Source: Chitinophaga sancti
Lineage (GTDB): Bacteria > Bacteroidota > Bacteroidia > Chitinophagales > Chitinophagaceae
DNA length: 64,000 bases
Assembly (NCBI RefSeq): GCF_034424315.1
Contig: NZ_CP139972.1
Span: 4,588,001 to 4,652,000, forward strand
Direction: 5' to 3'
The position numbers and the translations under genes were made by a program. Positions 45,803-64,000 of the stretch are shown one piece after another. The notes under the pieces were generated by a model that saw only the letters and a list, made by a program, of their open reading frames with translations, was not told where the DNA came from and did no database searches. Every line of letters begins with the position of its first letter. The stretch's first letter is position 1.

Positions 45803-45885
45803 CTTCAAACACCGGCCTTCAATCACTTGTCTTCAATCACTGCCCTCAATCACCGGACATCAATCACCTGTCTTCAATTACCTCA
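45803..45885. repeat. 14-bp minisatellite, six copies
   Basis: Units are CTTCAAACACCGGC, CTTCAATCACTTGT, CTTCAATCACTGCC, CTCAATCACCGGAC, ATCAATCACCTGT (13 bp) and CTTCAATTACCTCA. It lies in the gap between convergent genes, so it is non-coding. Copy number may vary between strains. Confidence 0.8.
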
Positions 45886-60326: not shown

Positions 60327-61007
60327 TCACACAATCAACTTATACCCCGCACCCCTGATACTCATCAGCTGCACACCTGGTTCATTCTTCAACATCTTCC
60401 GCAAGTGCGACATAAAAACATCCATACTACGTGCATTATAATACGTGTCATCTCCCCAGATCTTCAGCAGCGGCACCTGCCTTGGCACCAGGGTATTTTT
60501 GTTTTGTAATAACAGTTCTAATAAAGCCGCCTCTTTATAAGACAAGGTATACCTCGTTACCGATGTGACCAGTTCCTGCGACACCGGGTCCAGTTTACAA
60601 CCACCAAACGTATACACGGACCCGGTATCCTGCTGCTTTGCCCCAAACCGGCTCAGTAAAGACTCCATCCTGATCAGCAATTCACCCATATTAAATGGCT
60701 TGCGCAAATAATCATTTCCGCCACTCTTAAAGCCTTTAATCACATCCTCCGGCAAAGATTTCGCACTCAGAAATATAATCGGTACGCCTGTATCCAGTTT
60801 CCTGATATCCTCCGCCAGGGTATACCCATCCTTTAATGGCATCATCACATCCAATACACAAATATCCGGCGGCGTTTTTTGAAACATCTCCAAAGCCTGA
60901 CGACCATCCGTTGCCAACACGACCTCATATCCACTCTGCCCCAAACCATCACTGATGATCTGCGCCAGCGTTAACTCATCTTCCGCATATAAAACTTTAT
61001 ACTTCAT
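60327..61007 (-). CDS. OmpR/PhoB family response regulator
   Basis: The start is the ATG at 61007 (MKYKVLYAEDE); the TTG at 61013 is not needed. The 226-aa protein has a receiver domain with the acidic pair Glu9/Asp10, phospho-acceptor Asp53 in DICVLDVMMP, Ser/Thr in IIFLSAKS and Lys in YLRKPF. The C-terminal OmpR-type winged HTH is YKEAALLELLLQNKNTLVPRQVPLLKIWGD, then SHLRKMLKNEPGVQLMSIRGAGYKLIV. Its partner kinase is the gene upstream at 61389. Candidate DNA sites are the TTTAACC triplet at 62893-62919. Confidence 0.93.
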   Translation of the reverse strand: MKYKVLYAEDELTLAQIISDGLGQSGYEVVLATDGRQALEMFQKTPPDICVLDVMMPLKDGYTLAEDIRKLDTGVPIIFLSAKSLPEDVIKGFKSGGNDYLRKPFNMGELLIRMESLLSRFGAKQQDTGSVYTFGGCKLDPVSQELVTSVTRYTLSYKEAALLELLLQNKNTLVPRQVPLLKIWGDDTYYNARSMDVFMSHLRKMLKNEPGVQLMSIRGAGYKLIV

Positions 61008-61430
61008 TATCAATAGGTAGTTCTAAAATAATAACTTAATCTTTTCAAACATTTTCACACTTCATCCCAAACCGGCATTTCTACAATAATCACTTAATCC
61101 TCTCACAAATTTTCACACTTCATCTTAAACAGGCATTTCTACTATAATCATCTCATCCTCAGCCTTCATTATAAACAGGCAATTCTACAATAACCATCTC
61201 ATCCCCACACTTCATCCCAAACCGGCATTTCTACAATAACCACTTCCTCCTCAGCCTTCATTATAAACAGGCAATTCTATTATAATCATCTCATCCTCAG
61301 CCTTCATTATAAACAGGCAATTCTACAATAACCATCTCATCCCCACACTTCATCCCAAACCGGCATTTCTACAATAACCACTTCCTCCTCAGCCTTCATT
61401 ATAAACAGGCAATTCTATTATAAACTCACT
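61002..61430. repeat. 46-bp minisatellite between histidine kinase and response regulator genes
   Basis: Tandem units beginning CTTCAT at 61002, 61060, 61118, 61164, 61210, 61256, 61302, 61348 and 61394: two units of 58 bp, then six of exactly 46 bp, then the final unit inside the kinase gene. Units at 61164-61301 (138 bp) are repeated nearly exactly at 61302-61430. Read on the minus strand each unit encodes a version of the kinase C-terminus, I-V-E-L/M-P-V-Y/W-N/D-E-G followed by a stop. The array is thus a tandem duplication of the kinase-gene end. Confidence 0.9.
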
Positions 61431-62843
61431 CCCTTTCCCCAACTCACTCTGCACCCGAATCTTTCCACCATGCTTCTCCACTATCTGCTTCACATAATTC
61501 AACCCCAGCCCAGAGCCTTTCACATTATGCACATCCACATTATCCTGCACCCGAAAAAACCTTTCAAAAATCCTTGCCTGGTAAATCTTTGCAATCCCCG
61601 GCCCATTATCCTTCACACTAATCACAATATGCTCTGCCGTACAATAACAACTTACATCCACCTGCACAGTATTTCCTCCATACTTCAGCGCATTATCTAT
61701 CAGATTATAAAACACATTTGTCAGATGCACCGGATCTCCATCCAGGAAACAAGGCTCCTCCGAAGGATGGTAATGGATCCCCGCTGACTGATGCTGTAAC
61801 TGCATTGACCTCACCACCTGCTCCAATCCCTGCTGCACATCATACAATTCTGACCTTAACCTCGTCTGACCACTATCCACTTCATCCAGGTTCAATACCT
61901 TTTCTATCATCATATGCAAGCGGTGCAATTCCGTTTTACTGATATTGATATACTGCAACAACTTTTCCGGATCATTCGTCAGCTGGTACCGCGTAATCGC
62001 ATCCAGCGCAGCTTCCATCACAGCCACCGGCGTTTTTAACTCATGCGTCATATTGCTCGTAAATGCAATCCTCGCCTGAGCATATACCTGCTGATGCTTC
62101 ATTAACCTAAACACAAAATAAAAAGCTGCCCCGGTTAATAACAACATAAAAAATGAAGACAACAAAAAATACCGCATCCTATAAAACACAAACTCCCGCA
62201 ACGAAGGTACCACCAACTGAAAGTTATTATACAAGCGGATATTATAACTAAACTGCTCACTATGATAATCCGCTTCACGCACCTCCGCCGCCGTATGATT
62301 ATTCCGGATCGCCCCCGTTTCCCAATCATACTTCATAATAAAGAAATGCACCTTTATCTGGCTCTTCAGCAGCTCCTGTTCTACCAGGCTATCCAACCGG
62401 TTATACTCCACAGCATCCATATCCAGCTGCTGCTGCATCGTTTCATCTTCGCCAAAGATTCGTTCTACCTTATGCTTTTTCCGCTCATATTTCTTGTTAG
62501 GGATCCTGATACTAATATCCACAATAGAGCTATCGTCCTTTACATTCGATTCAAAACGGCTCGTTACCTTATGCCCTCTCATCCTGCTATACGCCTCCTT
62601 AAACTGAATCCACTCCGGCGACTGAAAGAAATCCAGGAAATTCTTATTCTCCTCGTTCCCCGGCAGCATACTCAGGTAATTACTACTACTCACCACACGC
62701 GCCACCACCTCATCCAGGTCACGCTTTACCTGCACCTGCTGCGAACTATATAACTGTCGCAGCCACACTACCTGCAACAACACGCTGACGATCATGGCCA
62801 CTACCACTAAAGGATATGCATATTTTTTAGAAAACCATTTCAT
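61389..62843 (-). CDS. Sensor histidine kinase
   Basis: This 484-aa protein has an N-terminal membrane helix (about residues 10-30), a periplasmic sensor of about 190 residues and a second membrane helix (about 228-250). The HisKA domain has His267 in SNMTHELKTP. The HATPase domain has the N box NVFYNLIDNALKYGG, G1 DNGPGI and G2 GSGLGLNYVKQIVEKHGGKI. Its C-terminus IIELPVYNEG is the source of the downstream minisatellite. The ATG at 62843 is 4 nt after CATCTTTG. It is divergent from a TonB-type receptor gene. Confidence 0.93.
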   Translation of the reverse strand: MKWFSKKYAYPLVVVAMIVSVLLQVVWLRQLYSSQQVQVKRDLDEVVARVVSSSNYLSMLPGNEENKNFLDFFQSPEWIQFKEAYSRMRGHKVTSRFESNVKDDSSIVDISIRIPNKKYERKKHKVERIFGEDETMQQQLDMDAVEYNRLDSLVEQELLKSQIKVHFFIMKYDWETGAIRNNHTAAEVREADYHSEQFSYNIRLYNNFQLVVPSLREFVFYRMRYFLLSSFFMLLLTGAAFYFVFRLMKHQQVYAQARIAFTSNMTHELKTPVAVMEAALDAITRYQLTNDPEKLLQYINISKTELHRLHMMIEKVLNLDEVDSGQTRLRSELYDVQQGLEQVVRSMQLQHQSAGIHYHPSEEPCFLDGDPVHLTNVFYNLIDNALKYGGNTVQVDVSCYCTAEHIVISVKDNGPGIAKIYQARIFERFFRVQDNVDVHNVKGSGLGLNYVKQIVEKHGGKIRVQSELGKGSEFIIELPVYNEG

Positions 62844-62892: not shown

Positions 62893-62919
62893 TTTAACCT
62901 TATTTAACCTAGTTTAACC
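62893..62919. promoter_or_regulatory. Three TTTAACC heptamers with exact 10-bp period
   Basis: TTTAACC at 62893-62899, 62903-62909 and 62913-62919. The 10-bp direct-repeat spacing is typical of OmpR/PhoB-type response-regulator sites. The third copy lies 21 bp upstream of the -7 box of the receptor gene, at the -33 position. Confidence 0.65.
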
Positions 62920-62952: not shown

Positions 62953-64000
62953 ATGAAAACGATCCACATACTCCTCCTGACATTACTGCCTCTTTTTGCA
63001 GCCGCACAGTCCAACATTACCGGCACTGTTACCGATGCCGAAGGTCATTTGCTCGATGGCGTAACTATTACCCTTAGCCAGCAAAATAAATATATCGCCA
63101 CCGCCATTACCGACCTTGGCCATTTTACCCTCAAAGGCCTGGCCAAAGGGAACTATACCCTCGCCGCCATGTCCATGGGCTATCAATCCTATACCCAAAC
63201 GCTTTCAGTACCCACTGATTCCATCACCATTCTACTGCAACCTGATCATAAACAATTACAAGGCATCACCGTTTCCGCTGCCAAACCAGTGATCGAGCGC
63301 AAAACCGACCGCATTGTCTTCAATGTTGAAAACAGCATCATTGCCAACGGCGGCACCTCCTGGGATGCCCTGAGCAAGGCCCCCGGTGTGACTGTAAACG
63401 CTGATAACTCCATCTCCGCCTACCGCAAAGGCGTGGAAGTATATATGGATGGTAAACCCCTCCACCTCTCCGGCGATGACCTGGTGAGCTACCTGCAGGG
63501 CCTGCCTTCCTCCACGATCACCCGGATCGAAGTGCTCACCAATCCACCCGCCAGTTTCGAAGCACAAGGTGGCTCCGTGATCAACATTGTCACTAAGAAA
63601 GTAAAGAAACAAGGCCTCAACGTAGCACTGAATGCTAACTACATCCAGGGCATCTACGGCTCCTACAATGGTAGCGCTACCTTCAACTACCGACAGGGTA
63701 AAGTGAACATCTACGGCAACTATGGCTATGGCCATAAACACACCTATATGGATAATAAAACCGACATCAATTTCGGTGACTCCTACTGGAGAACCAATGA
63801 TCATAATATACAGACCTCCAACACGCATAACTATCGCCTGGGCCTGGACTACCAGTTGACCGACAACCAGATCCTCGGTGTACTCGTTACCGGTAATAAC
63901 CGCGCTGGCCAAAGTGATGGCGACATCCCTACCCATATCTACAGTGCTGATAAATCTACGATCGACTCTACCTTACAAACCAATTCTACCGATAAAAAAG
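62953..64000 (+). CDS. TonB-dependent outer-membrane beta-barrel protein, N-terminal part (runs off window)
   Basis: The reading frame from the ATG at 62953 is open to the end of the window (349 codons visible). It begins with signal peptide MKTIHILLLTLLPLFAAAQ, then a carboxypeptidase-regulatory-like domain (ITGTVTDAEGHLLDGVTITL, then GYQSYTQTLSV). A plug domain follows (ITVSAAKPVIERKTDRIVFN, then ASWDALSKAPGVTVN-like and ITRIEVLTNPPASFEAQGGS) and the first barrel strands of the OMP_b-brl_3 type. It is expressed from a promoter with three TTTAACC sites, divergent from the kinase, so it is a probable target of the two-component system. The 3' end is not visible. Confidence 0.9.
   Translation, partial: MKTIHILLLTLLPLFAAAQSNITGTVTDAEGHLLDGVTITLSQQNKYIATAITDLGHFTLKGLAKGNYTLAAMSMGYQSYTQTLSVPTDSITILLQPDHKQLQGITVSAAKPVIERKTDRIVFNVENSIIANGGTSWDALSKAPGVTVNADNSISAYRKGVEVYMDGKPLHLSGDDLVSYLQGLPSSTITRIEVLTNPPASFEAQGGSVINIVTKKVKKQGLNVALNANYIQGIYGSYNGSATFNYRQGKVNIYGNYGYGHKHTYMDNKTDINFGDSYWRTNDHNIQTSNTHNYRLGLDYQLTDNQILGVLVTGNNRAGQSDGDIPTHIYSADKSTIDSTLQTNSTDKK

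Follow-up and report, generated by a model that had tools for sequence, protein, structure and literature searches.

A minisatellite built from copies of a kinase-regulator gene junction in Chitinophaga, and two further junction arrays in the same genome

MIRUs (mycobacterial interspersed repetitive units) are repeats that occur at many loci of one genome. Those at mycobacterial senX3-regX3 are the nearest precedent for the array described here: they too are repeats of tens of base pairs between the genes of a histidine kinase and a response regulator. According to the available portions of two papers, their make-up at senX3-regX3 varies by strain, with three 77-bp units or with two 77-bp units and one 53-bp unit (PMC4213456), MIRU ORFs are coupled to their neighbours (PMC12548453, PMC4213456), and MIRUs appear to be mobile, inserting at start codons (PMC12548453). 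The Chitinophaga unit differs in being a copy of the local gene junction, not found elsewhere in the genome, with a single ancestral copy in relatives. Because the unit is not found elsewhere in the genome, we do not count the array as a MIRU member.

Bacterial VNTRs and minisatellites share with this array the head-to-tail units, the higher-order block and the recent duplication; here, in contrast, the unit spans one gene's stop and the following gene's start, and two more such arrays are present in the same genome. The ancestral overlaps of 4 and 11 bp have the layout for which termination-reinitiation coupling is discussed in the portions consulted of PMC6728339 and PMC12548453, whereas in the Chitinophaga array the overlap is repeated as a chain rather than single. 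A literature search for arrays grown from gene junctions returned the MIRU line alone, a result that does not prove absence in print. We class the feature as a new variety of minisatellite, one whose source is the stop/start junction itself.

Anatomy of the locus and the array

The window, meaning the whole stretch of DNA analysed, is 64 kb of a single-contig 8.42-Mb genome of the genus Chitinophaga. Within it a HisKA and HATPase_c kinase adjoins a regulator with receiver and Trans_reg_C domains (Pfam), the composition of an OmpR-type two-component system. The distance from the kinase stop to the regulator ATG is 381 nt, filled by a tandem array. The features are as follows:

61389..62843, minus strand: sensor histidine kinase (HK), 484 aa, HisKA and HATPase_c (ORF call; Pfam PF00512, PF02518; orthologs 85-87% in relatives G014 and G031)
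60327..61007, minus strand: OmpR-type response regulator (RR), 226 aa from the ATG at 61007 (ORF call; Pfam PF00072 and PF00486; orthologs 92-95%)
60996..61423, minus strand: junction minisatellite, nine copies of the HK 3' end plus RR start (46, 46, 46, 46, 46, 46, 58 and 58 bp, then a terminal 36-bp core)
61286..61423, minus strand: higher-order block 1, made up of three 46-bp units (supported by the 143-bp run that recurs 138 bp away)
61148..61285, minus strand: higher-order block 2, identical to block 1 (143-bp identical run)
61032..61147, minus strand: two 58-bp units (Tandem Repeats Finder and copy-by-copy reading)
60996..61031, minus strand: terminal copy, the original RR start, holding ATGAAGTATAA at 61007-60997, with tail LELPIDNEV-stop, 31/36 identical to the G031 junction

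Tandem Repeats Finder (TRF) reports the array in three rows, scoring 584, 390 and 190: a 46-bp unit x6.5 at 61118-61417, a 138-bp unit x2.2 at 61118-61423 with 97% matches, and a 58-bp unit x2.2 at 61021-61150. Copy-by-copy reading finds nine copies, starting on the minus strand at 61423, 61377, 61331, 61285, 61239, 61193, 61147, 61089 and 61031; the last codons and stop of HK are part of copy 1. The array between HK and RR that the original prediction described from the sequence is thus real by program and by reading. Its unit length of 46 bp holds for six units and fails for two, which are 58 bp long and differ in sequence from each other and from all other units.

Read in gene sense, all nine copies share the core TTATnnTAGAA...ATGAAG. 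The ATGAAG is retained in every copy, with a kinase-frame stop at or near each. When the 36-bp cores are compared with the single junction of G031, 24-31 of the 36 positions match, against 18-22 for the best of 2000 mononucleotide shuffles per copy. The units thus align by program to the HK 3' end. An IVELPVYNEG-stop end had been proposed for each unit; the kinase frame reads ELPVYNEG-stop in four of the nine copies, and in the others EMPVWDEV (three copies, two of them with the stop 6 nt later), EMPV-stop (one copy) and ELPIDNEV-stop (the terminal copy, where the predicted LELPIDNEV-stop at the RR start was confirmed).

The two higher-order blocks had been placed at 61164-61301 and 61302-61430 and called nearly identical over 138 bp. 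A recent block is indeed present, with slightly different borders, and the repeat is closer than supposed: a stretch of 143 bp recurs perfectly 138 bp away (61423-61281 and 61285-61143). This identity indicates that the three-unit block was copied last and that the last step of the expansion was recent, as had been claimed.

No array DNA was found elsewhere in the genome (one place at E<=0.001). A 30-base pattern of the VYNEG-type unit, allowing up to three mismatches, occurs at four places in the genome, all within the array, and an exact 22-base piece of the array had no matches in viral contigs. A dispersed element is thereby unsupported, the unit having been found only in the array. Nor is a special RNA structure supported: the minimum free energy (MFE) of the 450-nt stretch is -72.3, against a mean of -76.9 (s.d. 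4.4) for 60 shuffles, and the folding of the RR start region (MFE -5.5) is similar to that of its counterparts in the four close relatives (-4.8 to -5.9).

The other side of the kinase gene faces a divergent spacer, beyond which a gene with a CarboxypepD_reg domain begins at 62953. This spacer carries three direct TTTAACC repeats 10 bp apart (62893-62919) that are kept in 4/4 close relatives; they are a possible binding site of this RR.

The single junction in relatives and the origin of the array

Orthologs of RR (E<=1e-80) were found in 10 of 79 genomes of the genus, its own included, and in all nine relatives HK and RR overlap at a single junction. The overlap is 11 bp, exactly ATGAAGTATAA, in four of them (G014, G031, G081 and G086), and 4 bp in the other five (G007, G008, G075, G079 and G095). 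The four with the 11-bp overlap have regulators 92-95% identical to RR, kinases ending IIELPVYNEV-stop, and one copy each of the junction sequence that forms the unit of the array. In a second genus the regulator is found at E<=1e-88 in 10 of 148 genomes, and all ten pairs overlap by 11 bp (ATGAAATATAA). Among 395 genomes sampled from the phylum, the same threshold gives two with the regulator, its own included, and among 298 sampled from the order its own alone.

When the array DNA was searched against the 79 genus genomes, the only matches below E=1e-5 outside its own genome were the four 11-bp junctions, each once; weaker matches (57/79 genomes at E<=1) are short and at other places. An array with an unrelated kinase end was found in no relative among these genomes. 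Two of the four close relatives have 61-bp-unit arrays some kilobases from the HK/RR pair, G086 (L085 570-1007, x7.2) and G081 (L084 10851-11067, x3.5).

Kinase ends were also surveyed among 120 listed homologs, out of 296 found among 8000 scored candidates. Of these 120, 73 end in Glu-Val or Glu-Ile, the residues forced by an 11-bp overlap with a regulator starting MKY, and 91 of the 120 listed regulators start MKY. Because 19/19 orthologous pairs overlap at a single junction and the listed kinase ends are mostly Glu-Val or Glu-Ile, the array of this genome is the derived state. That it arose by duplication of the overlapping HK-RR junction is, on this comparison of sequences, almost certain.

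Several parts of the original prediction bear on this history. The 11-bp ancestral overlap that it deduced was found in 4/4 close relatives, and the overlap without the array that it proposed to look for in related genomes supports the junction origin. Its estimate of about eight duplications agrees with the nine copies counted, and its shift of the kinase stop by about 390 bp comes to 392 bp, the stop having gone from a place 11 bp within RR to one 381 nt ahead of the RR start.

The ancestral pair thus had an 11-bp overlap between kinase stop and regulator start (ATGAAGTATAA), a state still present in the closest relatives. Through slippage or unequal crossing-over, local tandem duplication then produced about eight further copies of this junction in 58- and 46-bp units, with copying of the three-unit block as the latest step.

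The end of the kinase itself is less simple. HK ends Glu-Gly, which is the sequence of the unit, whereas the four close relatives end Glu-Val. Among the matches listed, three of the seven closest kinase homologs also end Glu-Gly: P0001 (90%), P0003 (85%) and P0006 (84%). The regulators presumably on the P0001 and P0003 contigs begin MKYK, which is incompatible with the 11-bp overlap, so these junctions have changed too, and a 4-bp overlap explains Glu-Gly as well as an array does. On a 19-row kinase tree, two changes are required to account for the four Glu-Gly rows; their ends may share one origin.

Mini-ORFs and the in-frame rule at three junctions

Counting from the A of the regulator ATG, the kinase stop of the ancestral overlap starts 8 nt further on. 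Both unit lengths (46 and 58) equal 1 modulo 3, so that the ATG in copy n shares its frame with the kinase-type stop site in copy n+1. The 46-bp part holds six mini-ORFs, which are 14-20 codons long and all begin MK. Each of the first five extends into the following copy as far as its kinase-type end, successive overlaps being 11 or 17 bp; two of these five stop 6 nt past the usual site, the usual stop being lost. Through the 58-bp units the chain is broken: the ORFs end after 6 codons and leave a gap of 24 nt once and of 15 nt once. The mini-ORFs are these:

61337..61399, minus strand: mini-ORF 1, 20 aa, sharing 11 bp with the kinase end
61297..61353, minus strand: mini-ORF 2, 18 aa, sharing 17 bp with mini-ORF 1
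61251..61307, minus strand: mini-ORF 3, 18 aa, sharing 11 bp with mini-ORF 2
61199..61261, minus strand: mini-ORF 4, 20 aa, sharing 11 bp with mini-ORF 3
61159..61215, minus strand: mini-ORF 5, 18 aa, sharing 17 bp with mini-ORF 4
61125..61169, minus strand: mini-ORF 6, 14 aa, sharing 11 bp with mini-ORF 5 and stopping 1 nt before the next ATG
61103..61123, minus strand: mini-ORF 7, 6 aa, cut short by an early stop within a 58-bp unit; 24 nt to the next ATG
61045..61065, minus strand: mini-ORF 8, 6 aa, likewise cut short within a 58-bp unit

ATG-to-stop spacings through the six 46-bp units range from -17 to +1 nt. Counting any ATG, a path leads from the HK stop to the RR ATG with a largest hop of 24 nt. 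When the 381-nt spacer was dinucleotide-shuffled 2000 times, 24% of the shuffles gave a chain whose bottleneck was at most 24 nt, and 2-3% of 647 other window positions per strand chain as well; since so many shuffles do equally well, composition alone suffices for the chain. Set against MIRU ORFs, then, the 46-bp units overlap by 11-17 bp instead of 4, the succession is broken in the 58-bp units, and it is no better than in shuffles. The mini-ORF chain is real in the sequence, yet it is no proof of selection.

Arrays at other junctions were sought in 2.464 Mb (29%) of the genome, made up of evenly spaced pieces and then the neighbours of some of them, with a period of at least 15 and a TRF score of at least 50. 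Tandem arrays are dense in this sample, which holds 102 merged arrays, or about one per 24 kb. About half (52) lie inside open frames of more than 450 nt, 14 lie over the 3' end of an open frame, 30 lie elsewhere, and 6 were flagged at co-directional junctions. Of the flagged arrays, the one at 2608210 was dropped on finding that its unit has the downstream start and not the upstream stop, and those at 4413145 and 4606414 (19 bp x2.1, low scores, automatic flag) were left out. Inside the window, a 14-bp array (CTTCAATCACCTGC x5.9) at 45803-45883 lies between two convergent open frames.

Two further stop-plus-start arrays are present in the 2.464 Mb. The first, at 3402659-3403105 (L126 2659-3105, G000:C1 3402659-3403105), has a 151-bp unit x3.0 between a molybdopterin-binding dehydrogenase subunit (MoCoBD) and an XdhC-type gene (Pfam). 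It encodes two 61-aa ORFs of the same sequence, each the XdhC start fused to the dehydrogenase end, which are chained with 35-bp overlaps into the XdhC gene. At this locus 4/4 close relatives have a single XdhC start and a single overlapping junction. The second, at 4204254-4204327, has a 38-bp unit x1.9 between a TonB receptor and an HmuY-like lipoprotein gene; in G014, G081 and G086 this junction is present once, with the stop 5 nt before the ATG. At the same junction G031 (C. silvisoli) has a 24-bp unit x13.7 (L236 2180-2505), which sits before the HmuY-like gene and consists of its start region without the upstream stop. The second 1.2 Mb of this 2.464-Mb sample brought no further stop-plus-start array, and among 30 HK loci (of 93 HATPase_c matches in this genome) an array at a co-directional junction was found only at the HK/RR locus studied.

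The rule that each copied ATG shares its frame with the stop of the following copy was drawn from the HK/RR array beforehand. It then held at both new arrays, the 151-bp and the 38-bp one (2/2, chance 1/9); the 38-bp array has another in-frame stop 6 nt earlier. The C. silvisoli 24-bp array breaks the rule, though the upstream stop is missing from its unit. The rule rests on three arrays of one genome, two of them being tests.

Coupling, rival readings and meaning

Translational coupling of HK and RR in the relatives is assumed from the overlap. In the array, ribosomes ending the kinase would reinitiate along the chain of mini-ORFs and reach the regulator with a loss at each step. The chain would thus relay coupling and not cut HK from RR, and the array would weaken and retune the regulator:kinase ratio by copy number, rather than merely separate the two genes, as the original prediction had it without considering a relay. 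Shine-Dalgarno sites play only a small part in Bacteroidetes, and this makes a dependence on reinitiation plausible. Such sites are seemingly not used for reinitiation in Bacteroidetes either, by the part of PMC6728339 available to us.

How well ribosomes would pass can be judged from studies summarised in the accessible part of a review (PMC12548453). In one E. coli study coupling was unchanged from -4 to +25 nt, weakened as overlaps grew beyond -4 and was no longer seen at -25 nt; in another study coupling was present, gradually declining, from +50 to +350 nt. By analogy, gaps of 1 to 24 nt would be favourable to a relay, the 11- and 17-bp overlaps less so and the 35-bp overlaps least; thus the 11- and 17-bp overlaps here and the 35 bp at the XdhC junction may pass ribosomes poorly. 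Coupling at +50 to +350 nt also means that a plain 381-nt spacer need not uncouple the pair fully.

A junction minisatellite with a reinitiation chain that tunes RR output is, as a whole, our best explanation, to which we give about an even chance. That HK-to-RR coupling is weakened and relayed we suggest only tentatively, as something rather doubtful.

A neutral minisatellite is a serious rival, which we rate somewhat short of even: slippage would have struck one junction of a slippage-prone genome, RR would be initiated on its own, and copy number would be without selectable effect. The wealth of arrays in the genome, a mini-ORF chain no better than that of shuffles and the early stops in the 58-bp units all suit neutrality. 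It sits less well with the in-frame rule, which is kept by all the stop-plus-start unit lengths of this genome (46, 58, 151 and 38), and with the state of HK and RR, both still open and close to their relatives, so that the pair is probably in use.

A promoter within the array, giving kinase-independent transcription of RR, is very unlikely. A promoter of the kind scanned for has a TTG box 16-23 nt before TAnnTTTG; with one mismatch allowed, the array holds no such pair, against an average of 1.5 in 500 mononucleotide shuffles, and has seven lone -7-like matches, one of them at 61030 near RR. The idea comes from senX3-regX3, whose intergenic MIRUs are said, in the portion seen of PMC4213456, to drive senX3-independent regX3 expression. 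We give next to no weight to an assembly artefact: a single genome of the species was examined, but the units differ from each other in an ordered way, the genome is one contig, and, as indirect support, the kinase homologs P0001, P0003 and P0006 also end EG and not EV, an ending that a 4-bp overlap would allow too.

Two smaller effects were considered and set aside. G, not A, stands at -3 in 3/9 copies, of which we make little, an A-to-G change at -3 costing about 10% in E. coli according to the part of PMC6847099 consulted. The linkers were compared with further RR codons as possible copies of them (five linkers by two targets in three genomes, 30 tests); one, linker 46c against the RR 5' end, was suggestive (p 0.026, 0.041 and 0.003 in the three genomes) and the others were not, and no such origin is claimed.

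Returning to the junction minisatellite, an overlap binds the sequences of two genes, and duplication of the junction opens the overlap without breaking either gene. This route applies to the overlap present in all 19 orthologous pairs examined. Operon junctions in these bacteria may more generally expand as 'ribosome relays', in which tandem copies survive if the start stays in frame with the next stop and coupling is adjustable by copy number, a generalisation that we think unlikely as it stands; if the relay reading is true, each unit is a new small gene, the start of one protein fused to the end of another. Material within the lineage is at hand at the TonB-receptor/HmuY-like junction, with one copy in three relatives, two (38-bp) in this genome and about 14 (24-bp) in C. 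silvisoli. If copy number sets the regulator:kinase ratio, slippage would be a fast, reversible dial on a signalling pair.
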